The translations under genes and the position numbers were made by a program. The notes under the pieces are model-generated. The model was given only the letters and a program-made list of their open reading frames with translations, was not told where the DNA came from and did not search any database. Shown here piece after piece: positions 56,549 through 64,000 of a stretch of 64,000 nucleotides of DNA; the stretch's first letter is position 1; every line of letters begins with the position of its first letter. Origin of the DNA: Arthrobacter sp. zg-Y844 (GTDB lineage: Bacteria > Actinomycetota > Actinomycetes > Actinomycetales > Micrococcaceae); contig NZ_JANFLS010000003.1 in assembly GCF_024385465.1 (NCBI RefSeq), forward strand, positions 124,001-188,000, read 5' to 3'.

Positions 56549-57697
56549 ATGATCACCACCCCCATTACGCCTTCGCTCGTTATTGGTGCGGCGGAACTGG
56601 AAACGACTCCCCGTGGTCTTCGGCCACATCGGCTGCCGGCTTCGGTGCGTAACCGGTTCCCCGATCCGCAGCTGATGATGGCGGAAAGCCAGCCGTCCGG
56701 TGTCCGGCTGGCAATGTCGACGACGGCGGAGGTCCTGGCGGTTGTGACGCACCCGTCCCGGGTGGTCTACCGGGGTGCGGACCGGCCGCGGGGCTTTGTT
56801 GACCTGGTGGTTGACGGGAAGCTGCTCGAGAGCGACGAGCTCACCGGCGGCGACTACGTCGAGGTGGATATGTCGACCGGAGCCGCGACTCCTTTTGAGG
56901 GGCCGTCGCATACCAGCGTCTTCCGGCTGCCGGCGGGCGACAAGGTGGTGGAGGTTTGGCTGCCGCACAATGAGGTGGTTGAGCTGGTCGAGATGCGCTC
57001 GGACGCTCCGGTCGCACCGTATTCCTCGGGGCGGCCCGTGTGGTTGCACCACGGCAGCTCCATCAGCCACGGTTCGAATGCCGCCACGCCGGCTCAGATC
57101 TGGCCTGCGGTTGCGGCCCAGTTGGGCGGGGTTGAACTGCAGAACCTCGGCCTTGGCGGGAGCGCCCTCGTGGATCCGTTCACGGCGCAGGTGATGCGCG
57201 ATACCCCTGCCGATGTCATCAGCGTGAAGCTGGGTATCAATGTGGTGAACATGGATTCCATGCGGCTGCGCGCCTTTGTGCCTGCGGTGCACGGTTTCCT
57301 CGACACCATCCGCGAGGGGCATCCCGAGACGCCTCTGGTGCTCATCTCGCCCATCTTCTGCGGTATCCACGAGGACACTCCGGGGCCCGGTGCCTTTGAC
57401 CCAGCGTCGTTCGGGACGGATCAGGTTCGGTTTATTGCGACCGGTTCGCCGGAGGGTGTCGCTGCCGGGCAGCTGACGCTGCGGGTGATCCGCGAGGCGT
57501 TGGAGTCGCTGGTGGCACGCCGGGCAGATGATCCGAACCTGTACTTCCTGGACGGCCTGAGTCTTTACGGGGCAGCGGACGCTGAAGCGCATCCGTTGCC
57601 CGACGCGCTGCATCCAGATACGGATACGCACCGGCTGATCGGGGAGCGGTTCGCGGAGTATGCGTTTGCGGCGGAGGGACCGTTCGGGCTGCGCTGA
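56549..57697 (+). CDS. SGNH/GDSL-type hydrolase
   Basis: 382 residues, GAGAGAAG before ATG 56549. The first 120 residues are a beta-rich N-terminal domain. The SGNH core follows, with block I HHGSSISHG, block II LGLGGSA, block III KLGINVVN and block V DALHPDTDTH, giving Ser, Gly, Asn, His. Such two-domain esterases act on acylated sugars or polymers. No signal peptide is visible. It lies 122 nt after the ABC operon and may depend on it, for instance removing acyl groups from an imported glycoside. Confidence 0.9.
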   Translation: MITTPITPSLVIGAAELETTPRGLRPHRLPASVRNRFPDPQLMMAESQPSGVRLAMSTTAEVLAVVTHPSRVVYRGADRPRGFVDLVVDGKLLESDELTGGDYVEVDMSTGAATPFEGPSHTSVFRLPAGDKVVEVWLPHNEVVELVEMRSDAPVAPYSSGRPVWLHHGSSISHGSNAATPAQIWPAVAAQLGGVELQNLGLGGSALVDPFTAQVMRDTPADVISVKLGINVVNMDSMRLRAFVPAVHGFLDTIREGHPETPLVLISPIFCGIHEDTPGPGAFDPASFGTDQVRFIATGSPEGVAAGQLTLRVIREALESLVARRADDPNLYFLDGLSLYGAADAEAHPLPDALHPDTDTHRLIGERFAEYAFAAEGPFGLR

Positions 57698-57757: not shown

Positions 57758-57850
57758 CGATTTGGGGACGACGGATCCGAAAGCGGCTACGTATTCTCGG
57801 CCACGGTCAACTGGGACGAGGCCAGTTACAGCTGGCATCTGGGGCGATAA
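57758..57850 (+). pseudogene. possible gene remnant at the island boundary
   Basis: A 30-codon stretch, RFGDDGSESGYVFSATVNWD onward, runs between an in-frame TAA (57755) and a TAA at 57848-57850 and has no start codon. The coding-like composition suggests the end of a lost gene at the left edge of the low-GC island. No homologue is recognised. Confidence 0.3.
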
Positions 57851-57920
57851 CGTTCAGAGCTTCGGTATCACGGTGAGGTCAGAACTAAGTACGCCGTAGG
57901 GGTCACGTATTGTTCACTAC

Positions 57921-59072
57921 ATGAAATTGAACAGAGCGTTAGAGCAACAGATTGCAGTGTTTGGGGAGGCTGGCAGTGGAAAGACTGTGTTGCTCTCCTC
58001 TTTCTATGGCGCTACACAGGAACCCCAGTACCGGCAAAAGAACGTGTTCCATGTGGTGGCTGACGATATCGGCCAAGGCTCGCGGCTGCACCGCAATTAC
58101 TTGGGAATGAGGGATTCATCCCGAGTGCCCGTGCCCACCAAATTCGCCGCAGACTCCTATAGCTTTTCAGTGAAGTTGAAGGAAGGCGCCAAGGCGAAGG
58201 CATTCAAGGCTAAACCCTTTGATGCGCTGCGGCTCGTCTGGCACGATTATCCCGGAGAATGGTTTGAGCAGGGCGTAAGCGGGCCTACCGAAGCCCAGCA
58301 TAGGGTCGACGCTTTCAGGTCCTTGCTCGGTTCCGATGTGGCCTTTTTGCTGGTAGATGCCCAACGCCTATTGGACAATGCTGGTGAGGAAGAGCGGTAC
58401 CTGAAATCCTTGATGGCTAACTTCCATAATGGGCTCTTGTCGCTGAAAGATGACTTGCTCGAAGATGGCAAGCCGATCGTAGATTTTCCTCGCATATGGG
58501 TAATGGCACTATCCAAGGCCGACCTGCTGCCAGACATGGATGTTTTCAAATTCCGGGATCTTCTCATCGAGAAGGCTTGTGACGACATAGACGCGCTGCG
58601 CAAGGTGCTGGCTGAGCTCGTAGACGGGAGCGAGGCCCTATCGGTGGGTGAGGATTTCGTTCTTTTCTCATCCGCGAGGTTCAACGGAGGCGGAATTGAG
58701 GTCAACAAGCGCATCGGCATCGACCTGATCCAGCCGTTGGCGGCGATGCTCCCGTTTGAGCGTCACGCCAAGTGGGCCCAGGCCAAGCAGCTCCCTAGAA
58801 AGGTGGCCGAAAACCTCCTGGGTGGGGTTGGAGTGCTGGCTGCTGCCTTGACTGGCCGCAAGTTGGACATCCCTGGACGGATGGGTCTTCTGGTTAACCT
58901 GATTGGCCCGGATGTACTGAGCGGCGCGGTGAATCTAGCCGGGGACAAGGTCAGAGAAATGAACGCTGACGCGATGGCAAAACAGGAATACCTTTCCGCT
59001 ACGCTAACCCGATTCAGAATGGACTTGGACCAGGCGGAAGAGGACGGCGTTCTCCTGAGGAGTCGCAGATGA
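57921..59072 (+). CDS. P-loop (TRAFAC-like) GTPase of unknown role
   Basis: 383 residues from ATG 57921. P-loop GEAGSGKT at residues 15-22, a DxxG-like WHDYPGEW (switch II, D109 and G112) and a SKAD motif (ALSKADLLP, 198-201) in the N/TKxD position, so it probably binds GTP. The remainder, about 170 residues, is helical with an amphipathic run near 290-330. There is no ribosome site; TATTGT lies 8 nt before the ATG, so the message may be leaderless. The codon and base use is clearly more AT-rich than in neighbours (29 of 60 GC at 58381-58440). It overlaps the next gene by 4 nt. Confidence 0.8.
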   Translation: MKLNRALEQQIAVFGEAGSGKTVLLSSFYGATQEPQYRQKNVFHVVADDIGQGSRLHRNYLGMRDSSRVPVPTKFAADSYSFSVKLKEGAKAKAFKAKPFDALRLVWHDYPGEWFEQGVSGPTEAQHRVDAFRSLLGSDVAFLLVDAQRLLDNAGEEERYLKSLMANFHNGLLSLKDDLLEDGKPIVDFPRIWVMALSKADLLPDMDVFKFRDLLIEKACDDIDALRKVLAELVDGSEALSVGEDFVLFSSARFNGGGIEVNKRIGIDLIQPLAAMLPFERHAKWAQAKQLPRKVAENLLGGVGVLAAALTGRKLDIPGRMGLLVNLIGPDVLSGAVNLAGDKVREMNADAMAKQEYLSATLTRFRMDLDQAEEDGVLLRSRR

Positions 59073-59407
59073 GCCTAATCTGGGCGACCCGGGGACAGGC
59101 TTGGGGTTTCAAGTTCCTCCGGGATGGCGGTTTGGAGGACCCGCTCCCGGCCTACCAAGAGGCCTTTTCCGGCTTGGAGGATGAACCTGAGGTGTGTCGC
59201 CGGGTCGGCGCGAAAATCGCCCTCCGGTTTCCAGATCCGGAAGGACGAAAGGACCGAGCGGGGAGGGTTATCCCACACGATTTCGTCGTCTCCGGGGCGT
59301 TGGTTGAGGAACTGCAGTCGATCGCTGACGGGCGGAGGGTTATCTGGCCACAAGTTGCCGATGAATACGCACGCAACTGGTCCAAGACGCCTTCATCAAG
59401 AACCTGA
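59069..59407 (+). CDS. small protein coupled to the GTPase
   Basis: 112 residues, starting 4 nt inside the GTPase gene (ATGA). It is soluble, with a hydrophobic N-terminal segment LIWATRGQAWGFKFLRDGG and a later VIPHDFVVSGALVEELQSIA. No family is recognised. The tight coupling suggests it binds the GTPase or shares its target. A convergent gap of 60 nt separates it from the SIR2 gene. Confidence 0.6.
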   Translation: MSLIWATRGQAWGFKFLRDGGLEDPLPAYQEAFSGLEDEPEVCRRVGAKIALRFPDPEGRKDRAGRVIPHDFVVSGALVEELQSIADGRRVIWPQVADEYARNWSKTPSSRT

Positions 59408-59467
59408 AACCAATGAGTTGCGAGTGGCAAGCAGCTCCATAGCTAGGCACGCACGAGCGTAAGGAAA

Positions 59468-61039
59468 CTAGGAGCTGGGAGTCGGAGCTCCCAGCTCTGC
59501 CAGCATCTCCCGCAGGCGGACGCCGCCGCTGCTTTGAGCTTCGTCGTCGGTGAGCCGCTTAGTGAGATCCAGCAGGGTTTCCCGCAAGGACTGCTCGGAT
59601 TCGGTCAGTGCTCCTTCGTAGCCCTCGGCCAAAAGATACGAATGGCTGTCCGTCGACAGAGCTACGAGAAGATCCAGGAAGATTTCGAGGGTCCGTCCTG
59701 CCGCGGCATTGGATTTTTCCGAAGATTCCTCATTCATCGGCACCAAGTTCAGCTGGGAAACCATCCGCCGGTCTAGGGGATCCGCGGACAGCATCAGCGC
59801 CGTCGCGGCGCCATCCTTGCCCCGGGGCTCCGGAGGAAGGGCACGCTTCACGTCGTGCAGGATCTCGTGGAAGTGGTCGTCGGCAAGGCCGAAGCCGACG
59901 AACAGGATGTGCTGCGTCATGAGGGTGGCTTTCACCAGGGCCGAGAGCGCGTTGCGTGATGCGTTGAAACCAAGATAATCGTCGCGGGTGAGGACGATCG
60001 AGTCAGGGTTCGTCACCGAACCATGAAGTTTCAGCAGCCAGTCGTCGTTCTCCCCGCCGCCGTCAGGAATGACCGACCGGGGGACGCCGGCGTCGGCCGA
60101 AGCGAATTCAAAGAGTTCGTCGTAGTTCAGGGTGATCGCCTCCCTGCTGCCCAGACTGGCGAGGAGAGCCGGTGCCAAACCGTAGCGTTTCAGCTCCACC
60201 AGATCGGCGATGGACTGATTGAAACTCCGACCGCCCGCGTCGGAGCGTTCCTCATAAAGAGAGCGCAGAATGCCGGCCTGGTCCAGATGCCCGCGCTTCT
60301 TGAGTGACTTACTTTCAGGGGGCGAGAGCTGTGCGGCCTTGGCCAGAGCCGCCAGGAGATTGTCCCAGCTCGGGGCACCGGCGCTCATGCTGACACCTGC
60401 GCCCATAAAAGGAACGAGCTTGCCGTCTCGGGCATGCGCGCCTAGTCGTGCAGCGTGATCCTTCAGCTCCCGATCGAGGGGTTTCCACCAGTCCGGCTGG
60501 CGCTTCCGCAGCTCCTGGGCGAAGGCGAAGTCCTTTTCGTTTGTGAGAATCAGCGCGACGTCGACGTCGGACTCGGCCGCGGCACGGCGTGCCTCCTGGA
60601 GAAGCCGCTGGATCACGTCGCCTCGCACCAGTCCTGCTCCGCCGCCGCCGGTGCCGAAAAGCGGCATGGCCAGCAAGGGAACGGGGCGGGACGGATCGTC
60701 GTTCGCAGCCCGCCGTCGTCGTTCGACCTGCTCCGCTGCGACCCGAATGAATTCACTCAACGGTGGAACCAGATCCTCGACCGAGGAAATGCCGTAATAC
60801 GGCACGGCAGTGAGGACCGGCATGGGTTCATCGGCAGGCCAGGAGTCGAGAGGCTGCGCTCGCTTAGCCCCGCTGGCGAAGTCGACGTCCCTGCTGCTGG
60901 CTACCACTGATTCCAGCCCTGGGAGTGCCTCCCGCCAGTGCCCAGCAATGCTGTAGGTGCGGTCGGTCGGAAGCAGCCATGCATCGCAAGCGAAGTTGGT
61001 CAGGCTGCCTCTGGTCACGAAGACGTGTGATTCCCCCAT
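59468..61039 (-). CDS. macro-like domain fused to SIR2 family domain
   Basis: 523 residues from ATG 61039 (AGGAAT upstream). N-terminal 175 residues look like a macro domain: RGSLTNFACDAWLLPTD near the start and a Gly-rich ribose-phosphate loop MPLFGTGGGGAGLVRGD (126-141). The SIR2 domain follows: GAGVSMSAG (213-221), TLNYDE (303-308) with probable catalytic Asn305, H339 in KLHGS, and FVGFGLADDHF (380-390). SIR2 proteins without deacetylase zinc sites are common NAD-cleaving effectors in phage defence. The macro domain would bind ADP-ribose or a derivative. A helical C-terminal 80 residues ends the protein. It is separate from its neighbours, with its own terminator-isolated start. Confidence 0.82.
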   Translation of the reverse strand: MGESHVFVTRGSLTNFACDAWLLPTDRTYSIAGHWREALPGLESVVASSRDVDFASGAKRAQPLDSWPADEPMPVLTAVPYYGISSVEDLVPPLSEFIRVAAEQVERRRRAANDDPSRPVPLLAMPLFGTGGGGAGLVRGDVIQRLLQEARRAAAESDVDVALILTNEKDFAFAQELRKRQPDWWKPLDRELKDHAARLGAHARDGKLVPFMGAGVSMSAGAPSWDNLLAALAKAAQLSPPESKSLKKRGHLDQAGILRSLYEERSDAGGRSFNQSIADLVELKRYGLAPALLASLGSREAITLNYDELFEFASADAGVPRSVIPDGGGENDDWLLKLHGSVTNPDSIVLTRDDYLGFNASRNALSALVKATLMTQHILFVGFGLADDHFHEILHDVKRALPPEPRGKDGAATALMLSADPLDRRMVSQLNLVPMNEESSEKSNAAAGRTLEIFLDLLVALSTDSHSYLLAEGYEGALTESEQSLRETLLDLTKRLTDDEAQSSGGVRLREMLAELGAPTPSS

Positions 61040-61059
61040 AAGGAATTCCTACCATGCTC

Positions 61060-61094
61060 GGCCCCTGGTCCACGTATTGGTGGGTCCAGGGGCC
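61060..61094 (-). terminator. hairpin after the ADP-ribosylglycohydrolase gene
   Basis: GGCCCCTGG (61060-61068) pairs with CCAGGGGCC (61086-61094), with an interior that partly pairs (TCCAC/GTGGG). It lies 14 nt after the ARG stop and before the SIR2 ATG, isolating the two transcription units. Confidence 0.65.
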
Positions 61095-61107
61095 GGTTCG
61101 GCTCGAA

Positions 61108-62592
61108 TCAGGCGGAGGGTCGGCCCGCCGCCTCCGCGGCCAACAGTTCCCGGAATGCCGGATTCGGGTGGGCGTTGGGGAGGACACAGCGTACCCGTTC
61201 CAGCGCTTCGAGGGGAGTCAGACCGGTGGTCCGGGCGCCGTAGAGAGCGGCAACCGTCGGCGTCCGGGACTCGGCGCGAACGCAATGCAGCAGCACCTTC
61301 TTGCCCTCGGCGCGGAAACGTTCGACGGCGGCGGCAGCCTCCTGCAGTACATACCCGGCGTAGGCATTGGAATCCGCGGCAGCCGAATCCACGAGCCAGA
61401 ACGTCGCGTGGTTCTCCTGTGCGATGCCGGGCACATCGGCCGTTCCCAGCCGGCACAAGGAAACCACTGCATCAATGCCCAGTTCGGCAGTTCTGGCTAC
61501 TGCTCCCACGCCGCCGAGCCAGACGCCGTCGTCGTCCGGGTGCTGGACCAGGACATCGGTCCTGCTCCACGAGCTGTAATCGTGGTGCTCGGCCCGCGGC
61601 CACTCCTGCGTACGACGCCCCGCACCGGAGGCGAGTTCGACGCCGAGCGTCATCAGATCGTGCGCCCGCAGGCCCGGCCAGCCGTGCAGGTTGCGGCGCC
61701 ATTCAAACGGAACGGCAGAGTAGCCGTAGGCAGCGCCCAGCAGGGAGCCGGCGATGGCGGCCACCGTGTCGGTGTCCCGGCCGCCGCGGACCGCCTCTTC
61801 GAGCCCGGCCCGGAGATGGTCGGGGCCGGAAGCGGTTCGTGTGGTGGCGATGGCGCTCCACGCGCCCTGGAGTGCTTCCACCACCCAGCCGTTCTTCGTG
61901 AAGTCCCGCGGCCGGGAGCGTTCGGCGGTTTCGATCCGCTCCAGCCACAGGGCGGCACGGTCAGGCGGCAGCAGCGGCAGCCCGGTCCGGATTTCCAGCC
62001 GACCGGTCAGGACGGCGTCGCGGATGGCGACGCACCAGAGTCCGCAGGCTTCCTGGGCGTCGTCTTCCACGTGGGTCAGTGCGCTGAGTACACCGGCCGC
62101 CGCCATGAGTTCGGCCGGATCCCGGTCCAGGTAGGCCAGGGCCAGGGGAGCAGTGCGCATCAGGGAGCCGTTGCCGGCGCTGCGGCCGGCGCGGGTGTGG
62201 AACTCCTGGGCAGTACGGGTGAAATCGTCGGCGGTCGGGTCGGTCCGGCCGTCGTCGCTGGCGATGCGGCGGGCGCGGGCGATGACACTGCTGGTCTGCG
62301 CGCCGACGTCCTTTGCGTCGCGTGCCCAGGCGGTCCAGGCGCGGACCACGGATGTGAGCGCTTCCGGGGTGGTGCCGGCGTCGAGGAATGCTTCGGCGAT
62401 CGGGATCGCCATGGAGGTGTCGTCGGTCCATTCGGCCGGGTCGAACCCGAAGGGGCCGCCGCCCTTCATGGTGACCTCGGTGCCGTCGGGCAGCGGTGCG
62501 CCGAATTCGTAGCCGGCGCCAAGGGCATCTCCGGCGGCGAGGGCGACGAGGACACCGGCGGCGCGGTGGTTCTGCTGTGAGTTCAGGTTCAT
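61108..62592 (-). CDS. ADP-ribosylglycohydrolase fused to a dual-specificity-phosphatase-like domain
   Basis: 494 residues from ATG 62592 (GGAGG upstream). The ARG part has GDALG (21-25), TDDT (56-59, metal binding) and GGRDTDTVAAIAGS, all required for Mg-dependent cleavage of ADP-ribose from proteins or nucleotides. The C-terminal part carries the phosphatase motif HCVRAESRTP (Cys near residue 435, C-x5-R). This ARG-phosphatase fusion is a known partner of ARPP-1. It starts 4 nt inside the ARPP-1 gene, so both are made together. Confidence 0.9.
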   Translation of the reverse strand: MNLNSQQNHRAAGVLVALAAGDALGAGYEFGAPLPDGTEVTMKGGGPFGFDPAEWTDDTSMAIPIAEAFLDAGTTPEALTSVVRAWTAWARDAKDVGAQTSSVIARARRIASDDGRTDPTADDFTRTAQEFHTRAGRSAGNGSLMRTAPLALAYLDRDPAELMAAAGVLSALTHVEDDAQEACGLWCVAIRDAVLTGRLEIRTGLPLLPPDRAALWLERIETAERSRPRDFTKNGWVVEALQGAWSAIATTRTASGPDHLRAGLEEAVRGGRDTDTVAAIAGSLLGAAYGYSAVPFEWRRNLHGWPGLRAHDLMTLGVELASGAGRRTQEWPRAEHHDYSSWSRTDVLVQHPDDDGVWLGGVGAVARTAELGIDAVVSLCRLGTADVPGIAQENHATFWLVDSAAADSNAYAGYVLQEAAAAVERFRAEGKKVLLHCVRAESRTPTVAALYGARTTGLTPLEALERVRCVLPNAHPNPAFRELLAAEAAGRPSA

Positions 62593-63530
62593 AGGGCCTC
62601 CATAAGTGGGTGTTTGGTGTTCCAGCAAGATAGATGGGCAATATCGGGTTCCCTGTTGGGGAGCCGGACGGCCATGCCTTCTGCCATGACAGGGCCGCGG
62701 ACGCCCAGGACGTTACGGCTGCGCATTGAGTCGTGGCGCCGGACGCCCTCGCTGTAGAACTCGCCGAAATCGATGGTTCCGGCGATGGCAGCAAAGTCAC
62801 GGGCGAGCTGGCCGGGCATCGGTACGGTGCTCTGGGGCGCGGGCAACAGTGCCGCATCGAGCAACGCAGCGTCCATGAGCTGCTGGTAATGGCGTCGGAA
62901 CAAAGTAGCCGTGCCGAAAACTTCCAGCAGCAGGGGTTGTCCGCCGACGCCGATCACCACGCCGCGTTGGCCCTCCAGCGGCTCCGGTACGGAGCTCGCG
63001 AAGCGGTGCCTGTCACGGCTGCCAAACCTGTCCAAATGCTCGGGAAGGGAACTGGTGGCTGTGGGTCCGGTGGCGGCGTCGAAACGCCGGACCCGTTCCC
63101 AGATCTGCTCCTGCCGTCGACCTCCGAATTGGGTGGACCCGGCGCCAGCTAGCTCGGCGCGGACGTTGAGTGGTGCCCTCCGTGCCTGGCGGTGGTGTGT
63201 GTTTTGGCCGGCTTCCCACCGTCCTGCCTCGACGCAGAACGTGTCGATGTCCAAGGTTTCGCCCACGTCGATGAGGACGTCGCGGGCGCAGGTGCGGTGT
63301 TGCTGTCCCCCTTCCAGCAGCTCACCTTCGAGCAGCAGGGCCGCGCGTTTCCCGTTGTTCCGGACCGTTAGCTGGCCCACCTTGGCGCCCGCCGCCAGTT
63401 CGGAGACGGCAAGGTCTGCGTGGAGTCCGGTGCTGATGCCGAGCCTCCCGCGTCCGGCTGTCCGGACGGGAAAGATCGTAAGTGGGCCGGCGGCAGTGCC
63501 GGCGCCGACGTGGAGTTGTGGAATCTGCAT
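62589..63530 (-). CDS. ARPP-1 domain protein
   Basis: 313 residues from ATG 63530 with AGGAGG 6 nt upstream. The diagnostic ALLLEGELLEGGQQHRT block (64-80) and FCVEAGRW (98-105) identify the ARPP-1 (ARG and rhodanese/phosphatase-associated) domain. Family function is unproven but linked to ADP-ribose or NAD metabolism. A helical middle (EQIWERVRRFDA) and a long C-terminus complete the protein. It is first of the ARPP-1/ARG operon and faces the NUDIX gene across a 92-nt region with two repeated sites. Confidence 0.85.
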   Translation of the reverse strand: MQIPQLHVGAGTAAGPLTIFPVRTAGRGRLGISTGLHADLAVSELAAGAKVGQLTVRNNGKRAALLLEGELLEGGQQHRTCARDVLIDVGETLDIDTFCVEAGRWEAGQNTHHRQARRAPLNVRAELAGAGSTQFGGRRQEQIWERVRRFDAATGPTATSSLPEHLDRFGSRDRHRFASSVPEPLEGQRGVVIGVGGQPLLLEVFGTATLFRRHYQQLMDAALLDAALLPAPQSTVPMPGQLARDFAAIAGTIDFGEFYSEGVRRHDSMRSRNVLGVRGPVMAEGMAVRLPNREPDIAHLSCWNTKHPLMEAL

Positions 63531-63545
63531 GTCGAACCTCCTCGC

Positions 63546-63570
63546 TTTAGCGCAAATGTGAGATAAGTAG
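63546..63570. promoter_or_regulatory. candidate operator 1 of the ARPP-1/NUDIX region
   Basis: Contains GCGCAAATGTGAGATAA, one of two near-identical direct copies (6 differences over 25 nt) in the divergent gap. It lies 15 nt before the ARPP-1 ATG, overlapping its probable promoter. Likely bound by the NUDIX-type regulator. Confidence 0.55.
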
Positions 63571-63593
63571 TTCCAGTATGCACCGGTTGCATC

Positions 63594-63618
63594 TTTTGCG
63601 CAAGATTGAGATAAATGG
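63594..63618. promoter_or_regulatory. candidate operator 2 of the ARPP-1/NUDIX region
   Basis: Contains TTGCGCAAGATTGAGATAA, the second copy, 48 bp from the first (nearly a whole number of helical turns). TTGCGCAA within it is an 8-bp palindrome. It ends 4 nt before the NUDIX ATG, so binding should repress that gene as well. Confidence 0.55.
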
Positions 63619-63622
63619 GGGT

Positions 63623-64000
63623 ATGAGTGAGTCCCGTATGCCCTTGTCCCTCCTGGATTATCCACGTCCTTCTGTAGCCGTGGACACCGCAGCGCTGACC
63701 GTGGCTGGGGACGAACTGATGGTCCTACTCGTACGCAGGCGGGAGGAACACCACGCGGGGGAGTGGGCGCTGCCTGGCACGTTCCTGCGGGAACGTGAAT
63801 CTCTGGCGGATGCCGTCCTGCGATCCCTCCGGGTCAAGGCTGGAATCGAGGGGAGGGTCCCGCAGCAGCTCCATGTCTTCGATGATCCGGACCGGGATGA
63901 CCGGGGCTGGACACTGTCCGTAGCCCATGTGGACGCAGTCCCGTTCCGGGAGCTGGAAACCCCGCTGCAGTCCGACGATGTCCGTCTGGCTTCGATCGCG
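63623..64000 (+). CDS. NUDIX-domain regulator, NrtR-like, cut by window edge
   Basis: 126 residues visible, open at the right edge. The NUDIX fold is clear (AALTVAGDELMVLLVRRREE, then GEWALPGTFLRERESLADAV). In the NUDIX box the catalytic Glu residues are lost: the segment LRSLRVKAG replaces the REUxEExG pattern, so hydrolysis is unlikely. NrtR regulators have such a sensor plus a C-terminal winged helix, which would lie beyond the edge. They respond to ADP-ribose or related NAD products. Its position opposite ARPP-1 and the flanking repeated sites fit this role. Confidence 0.8.
   Translation, partial: MSESRMPLSLLDYPRPSVAVDTAALTVAGDELMVLLVRRREEHHAGEWALPGTFLRERESLADAVLRSLRVKAGIEGRVPQQLHVFDDPDRDDRGWTLSVAHVDAVPFRELETPLQSDDVRLASIA

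Follow-up and report, generated by a model that had tools for sequence, protein, structure and literature searches.

A mobile two-gene cassette of Actinomycetota pairing a DO-GTPase2-family GTPase with a small partner of probable longin/roadblock-like fold

DO-GTPases have been predicted to act as immune switches together with GAP1 proteins and variable effectors (Kaur et al. 2020, eLife, PMC7159879). According to that article, a conserved glutamate at Walker B is a feature of these GTPases, two paralogous GTPases are present in 38% of the DO-GTPase/GAP1 systems, and N-terminal zinc ribbons are found in 60% of the GTPases. A DO-GTPase-family protein also occurs in some gammaproteobacterial psp-type operons, where it is predicted to deal with membrane stress, not with phage (available sections of PMC11237479, 2024). 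Here we describe a GTPase of this kind that travels with a single small partner gene. The words longin and roadblock appear nowhere in the main text of PMC7159879, and no description of the pair was found in the available parts of that article or of PMC11237479; subscription papers or the eLife supplement may list it.

The pair lies in a window of 64,000 nucleotides (the whole stretch of DNA analysed) from Arthrobacter sp. zg-Y844 (Table 1). A preliminary description, made from the sequence alone, had marked a low-GC GTPase gene with GEAGSGKT, DYPG and SKAD motifs, followed by a 112-residue partner starting within a 4-nt ATGA overlap, and had proposed an acquired, possibly immune module. Its base counts were exact on recount (29/60 GC at 58381-58440, 42/60 at 56881-56940), and the cassette, at 56.4%, proved to have the lowest GC of 1248 segments of 1617 bp taken stepwise along the 64 kb, which average 65.8%. 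Of 75 other loci of at least 9 kb, 65 have a pair with less GC than the flanks (mean difference -3.8 points).

Table 1. Features of the cassette, in window coordinates; cassette ends are exact to a few bases.
Feature	Position	Strand	Remark
Inserted cassette, ~1617 bp	57850..59466		Takes the place of 14 nt in the empty site; limits set by BLAST matches
Remnant 3' end of an older gene, predating the insertion	57770..57849	+	Similarity to G009 and G013
-10-like TATTGT, predicted leaderless promoter	57909..57914	+	TANNNT kept in 73/83 loci
DO-GTPase2-type GTPase, 383 aa	57921..59072	+	Pfam PF19993; AF2 model, YcjX match
P-loop GEAGSGKT (G1), residues 15-22	57963..57986	+	Motif
DYPG (G3/Walker B), residues 109-112, then invariant Glu113	58245..58256	+	74/74 homologues
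SKAD (G4, guanine specificity), residues 198-201	58512..58523	+	S198, K199 and D201 invariant in 74/74
Hydrophobic variable C-terminal segment, residues 294-344	58800..58952	+	Low conservation, low pLDDT
GAGGAG, Shine-Dalgarno-like site of the partner, within the GTPase ORF	59057..59062	+	6 nt before the partner ATG
ATGA start/stop overlap	59069..59072	+	GTPase stop / partner start
Partner, 112 aa, predicted longin/roadblock-like fold	59069..59407	+	AF2 model, fold comparison

The window protein matches the Pfam family DO-GTPase2 (PF19993) with 28.1 bits, against a curated cut-off of 27, and all 74 aligned homologues match the same family (E <= 0.01), with weaker P-loop families behind it. The three motifs first noted are conserved across these homologues along with G5: the P-loop Gly/Ser/Lys and S-K-x-D residues are invariant, G5 is nearly so, and the block W107-W114 (WHDYPGEW), which includes the conserved Walker B glutamate as E113, is unchanged in 74 of 74. 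Sequence comparison thus places the protein among the TRAFAC-type GTPases, in the DO-GTPase2 family, and shows its G1, G3, G4 and G5 motifs to be intact. The suggested link to the double-GTPase families is thereby upheld at the level of the domain; the GAP1-N2 domain of the published actinobacterial systems, searched with its own profile, was absent from the window and from 80 homologous loci of 5-17 kb each, while both positive controls were found. No CxxC zinc ribbon occurred in any of 83 GTPases, no effector domain was found, and a single GTPase match, with no paralogous second GTPase, was seen in all 10 genomes whose match is true. Past residue 286 the protein is helical, hydrophobic and poorly conserved, and the most hydrophobic 45-mer begins at residues 280-319 in 56 of the 74 homologues. 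Kyte-Doolittle hydropathy exceeded 1.6 over some 19-residue stretch in 24 of the 74, in part of them outside the C-terminal region; the window GTPase reaches 1.35 at most and shows no clear transmembrane segment, and its segment 294-344 is a possible site of membrane contact.

Searching genome contigs with the GTPase yielded 156 homologous loci, the best 80 of which were kept; by record title all 80 are from Actinomycetota, some of them metagenome bins. The partner, as first described beside the window's GTPase, lies directly downstream in 80 of 80. It has the same place at the 10 true loci from a search of relatives, although five of these are the window itself or contigs already counted in the 80. 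In three of the best 80 loci (L030, L058 and L059) the GTPase frame is interrupted while the partner frame is open, which may reflect decay or sequencing error. Intact pairs numbered 83 distinct loci including the window, with 82 different GTPase sequences, and over 74 pairs the identity matrices of the two proteins correlated at r 0.73, where the maximum of 500 permutations was 0.19. When 198 genomes from the order were searched with PF19993, 22 matches were obtained, 9 of them of this subfamily; the partner accompanied all 9 and was not seen beside the other 13 (3-4 kb read around each). A different small DO-GTPase arrangement was observed at L142:1495-2373 (+), where a 292-residue DO-GTPase comes right after an HSP70-like frame (3.5 kb read).

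No further gene is shared. When frames were clustered over 88 loci (a set with two duplicates and some loci of ~4 kb), no neighbour family occurred in more than 9 loci, besides five clusters on the pair's own DNA. The nearest downstream gene, as called by a simple gene caller, was convergent in 48 of 77 cases, and 42 of the 74 nearest upstream genes read in the same direction as the pair. Genome comparison thus shows a partner gene that is strictly linked to, and overlaps, the GTPase gene, with no third shared gene.

Profile searches assigned the partner to no known family: neither Pfam nor NCBIfam nor PADLOC matched the window protein (E <= 1), a PDB profile search gave one row that we judged to be chance, and a Pfam scan of 75 partners (E <= 1) gave nine weak, scattered matches with no family in more than two members and no longin or roadblock model among them. 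Eleven columns do not vary among the partners (W5, R8, G9, W12, G13, P57, D62, G65, R66, I68 and W93), and DxxGR is present in 75 of 75. The AF2 model is of high predicted quality (pLDDT 91.7, pTM 0.86). Foldseek placed mostly GATOR1, SEA and FLCN-Rag chains in the top rows, with a bacterial regulator in row 2 (best E 0.028, none <= 0.001). VIA alignment ranked Fuzzy-Inturned first (Z 6.6, 2.8 A, 89 residues), followed by Mon1-Ccz1 (Z 6.3) and an Asgard longin domain (Z 6.1), with SRX, TRAPP, Ragulator and adaptor longins lower down. Chains that we take from their titles to be of longin/roadblock type made up the 11 best rows and ~42 of the best 50; the first unrelated row came at rank 12 (Z 5.2). 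Because a VIA Z below 8 may reflect a common arrangement alone, and the best value here is 6.6, we grade a longin/roadblock-like fold of the modelled partner as probable, not proven.

The two genes differ in their expression signals. A TANNNT hexamer at such a short distance from the start codon is the leaderless-promoter arrangement of actinobacteria, and TANNNT ended 6 nt (61 loci) or 7 nt (12 loci) upstream of the GTPase start in 73 of 83 loci, compared with a mean of 2.8 and a maximum of 9 for shuffled upstream sequences and 0 to 2 for shifted windows; in the window TATTGT ends 6 nt before the GTPase ATG. The GTPase mRNA is therefore predicted to be leaderless. A four-base Shine-Dalgarno core preceded 77 of 83 partners but 15 of 83 GTPases, and a five-base core 38 partners but 8 GTPases. 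The preliminary claim that no ribosome site is present accordingly holds for the GTPase, which looks leaderless, and fails for the partner, which has one in GAGGAG. The partner frame is -1 relative to the GTPase in every locus, raising the thought of a programmed -1 frameshift fusion; since every overlap in the 83 intact pairs contains a start codon, of the form NTGA (41 ATGA, 41 GTGA, 1 TTGA), this is disfavoured and re-initiation is favoured.

Within the genus the pair is an insertion. It was found by DNA search in 4 of 29 genomes, own included. The GDSL gene upstream and the SIR2 gene downstream are adjacent in congeners G015 and G026, where 25 nt separate their aligned parts, and in the empty site of G013 the window positions 57849 and 59467 lie 14 nt apart, so that the insert spans approximately 57850-59466 and carries just two genes. 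A genome of the same species, G583, has the GDSL gene and gave no DNA match to the pair. A divergent pair (GTPase 71% and partner 63% identical) lies inverted beside the GDSL gene in G004. The stretch just before the insert (57770-57849) shares 88-89% identity with a remnant in G013 and with the 3' end of a 265-aa frame that is open in G009. The G009 frame (265 residues, L127:1853-2650, +), which occupies the slot there, looks by eye like a zinc-ribbon membrane protein.

Other congeners carry other cargo after the GDSL gene: in G020 Vsr with a C5 DNA methylase, in G019 SRA-HNH with Mrr, in G002 an exonuclease-BRCT protein, in G027 a DUF4357 protein and in G004, adjoining the pair, GmrSD. Proteins with no Pfam match follow it in G012, G003 and G583, and by eye mostly ordinary genes in G001, G014, G021 and G018. 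In two congeners, similar-looking proteins of 417 and 448 residues with no Pfam match (L131:2081-3331 and L139:2663-4006, both -) follow the GDSL gene and are possible hotspot cargo of a new kind.

The pair is rare more widely. It was present in 9 of 197 other relatives and in 1 of 395 other genomes sampled across the phylum with the partner profile as query. Two further candidates, G178 and G087, were rejected, the matched frames being ABC-transporter ATPases, so the true count among relatives is 10 of 198, own included, instead of 12. A quick GTPase tree required 25 family-label changes against a minimum of 16, with labels far more clustered than chance, and for the three Streptomycetaceae the starred branches make 3 changes unavoidable; more than one change does not prove transfer. 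The partner matched 4 of 72,556 plasmid records. The pair is on three near-identical plasmids of Curtobacterium flaccumfaciens, and on another Curtobacterium plasmid a partner piece alone remains, with a type ISP enzyme nearby. A scan of viral contigs found no relative. One phage record from human faeces (MT835574.1, our L216) does hold the pair; as this record is marked unverified, has 72.6% GC over the 12.6 kb read and encodes a partner nearly identical by eye to that of Brachybacterium L085, we take it for a probable chromosomal contig and reject phage carriage on this basis.

These comparisons show that the pair moves horizontally as a two-gene unit. A gene held at the same site in all relatives, the outcome that would have told against acquisition, was looked for and did not occur; presence in 4 of the genus genomes together with clean empty sites rules out an ordinary core gene. 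Acquisition as first proposed is thus borne out by the empty sites, the patchy distribution within the genus and the absence from a same-species genome, by the lowest GC of the window, and by a tree that partly departs from the families.

To gauge the surroundings we scanned 138 of the 151 nearest genes against PADLOC at E 1e-15, leaving out seven very long genes and six near-duplicates. The 71 downstream genes matched 29 PADLOC families and the 67 upstream genes 45, the matches listed including type I, III and IV restriction, ThsA-like SIR2, NERD, HEC-06 and PDC models; one SIR2 neighbour (L029) is a near-copy of the window's own. The 132 control ORFs, taken at 20 fixed places in relatives, matched 5 families (mad3, MzaA, mad8, C3a214/GlgB and AriA) and no restriction genes. 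We treat this contrast as qualitative because the counts are of families and not of proteins, one protein possibly matching several, and because the controls come from genomes other than those of the loci, with some near-identical rows. Pfam showed scattered defence genes and transposases amid many ordinary metabolic genes. On one of the three near-identical C. flaccumfaciens plasmids, which was read widely, the genes that follow closely downstream of the pair encode a type ISP restriction-modification enzyme, a SAVED protein and a DncV-like nucleotidyltransferase. In this qualitative sense the pair does lie by defence genes when set against the control ORFs. It is often found by virus-defence genes, in soil-type bacteria, and so may belong to bacterial immunity without having been recognised as such; it is the neighbourhood, together with the restriction and other defence genes that take the slot in congeners, that makes an immune role plausible.

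Next to the cassette, at 59468-63665 (-), are three genes for a SIR2-like protein (ThsA-like match, with an N-terminal half that has no assignment and looks macro-like by eye), an ADP-ribosylglycohydrolase whose C-terminal part resembles a phosphatase, and ARPP-1. This trio stays together in several congeners and may form a separate NAD/ADP-ribose conflict module.

Our main reading, to which we give a probability of about 0.47, is that the cassette is an obligate two-protein GTP switch for anti-phage defence, in which a longin-fold partner gates an acquired GTPase. Translation of the GTPase would begin on a leaderless mRNA and that of the partner would follow by coupled re-initiation, yielding matched amounts. 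We infer that the two form a complex, the partner docking on the GTPase as in MglA-MglB, SRbeta-SRX or Rag-Ragulator and there holding or gating the nucleotide cycle, whether exchange or hydrolysis; candidate contacts on the partner are the invariant W5, R8, G9, W12 and G13 and the loop D62-x-x-G65-R66. An infection signal would alter the pair, and in its GTP-bound form the GTPase would then act by means of the variable, hydrophobic helices at its C-terminus, with the membrane as a possible target. We regard as doubtful the more ambitious proposal that the pair is the first example of a longin-gated immune GTPase, a self-sufficient anti-phage switch of Actinomycetota, with a membrane-acting effector tail on the GTPase itself and a longin-like core that may also underlie GAP1-N. 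Longin/roadblock control of GTPases is familiar mainly from traffic and nutrient sensing in eukaryotes, and the main reading, if true, would join it to bacterial immunity. A two-gene form with a 112-residue partner on ~1.6 kb is in addition a much smaller testable DO-GTPase system.

Of the other explanations, the one that is a serious rival, although we hold it unlikely, is that the pair is a mobile GTPase-regulator switch with a non-immune accessory role in envelope stress, polarity or the cell surface, like YcjX or MglA-MglB, and a mere passenger of defence islands. YcjX is stress-induced, and it is the closest solved fold in VIA comparison of the AF2 model of the GTPase (mean pLDDT 79), at Z 15.2 over 255 residues (4.6 A) against 11.4 for the next entry, below which the matches are Ras-like GTPases generally; MglA is among the Foldseek matches, and many neighbours are ordinary genes. 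The envelope-stress version gains from this YcjX match and from the link drawn in the available sections of PMC11237479 between a DO-GTPase-family protein, psp-type operons and predicted membrane stress. Patchiness, presence and absence within a species, and the exchange of the slot with restriction genes nonetheless fit defence better.

The same small, mobile, overlapping gene pair could be read as a toxin-antitoxin system, the GTPase with its hydrophobic tail being toxic and the small coupled partner neutralising it, and we consider this improbable. The GTPase is never without the partner in the 80 kept loci, the three interrupted loci keep a partner beside the broken GTPase, and one plasmid stretch retains the partner piece by itself; but an obligate complex, as in the main reading, would predict the linkage equally, the interruptions may be sequencing errors, and so few of the plasmid records contain the partner. 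Least probable is a cut-down form of the DO-GTPase/GAP1 conflict systems, with GAP1 shrunk to its N-terminal domain and the partner being a stand-alone GAP1-N, for although the GTPase is of the same family and by eye a GFRF strand and a D-x-x-G-R...H stretch occur in both GAP1-N2 and the partner, the hhalign score of 14.8 was not significant, being reached in 7 of 60 column-shuffled controls, so that we rejected the partner as a GAP1-N2 domain, a shared origin being unsupported by profile comparison.

Set beside known systems, the pair resembles several in part. YcjX (DUF463) is the best structural match of the GTPase, and its Pfam family is matched by 7 of the 74 homologues (E <= 0.01), whereas the window GTPase has no such match (E <= 1); we know of no longin-like partner of YcjX. 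Chains of SRbeta-SRX and of Rag-Ragulator/GATOR are among the matches of both models of the pair, but those are eukaryotic membrane-traffic or nutrient-sensing complexes, to which the pair is likened by fold comparison alone. MglA-MglB likewise combines a GTPase with a small roadblock/longin-type partner, a likeness seen in the predicted fold alone, and MglB is both GAP and GEF of MglA (available text of PMC11016934); the GTPase of the pair, however, is of another family and has a C-terminal helical extension, its partner belongs to no Pfam family, and the two form a mobile cassette. With the DO-GTPase/GAP1 systems the pair shares a PF19993 GTPase with the Walker B glutamate, a GTPase gene followed by a partner gene, mobility and a proposed immune role. 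The pair differs in having the 112-residue partner alone in place of GAP1-N2, with no shared third gene, and paralogous GTPases and CxxC zinc ribbons are not among its features. It thus has a DO-GTPase2-domain protein yet falls outside the DO-GTPase/GAP1 systems that carry GAP1-N2: it is a real, recurrent and mobile two-gene system, a variant of the DO-GTPase systems whose partner is, by predicted fold, probably longin-like.
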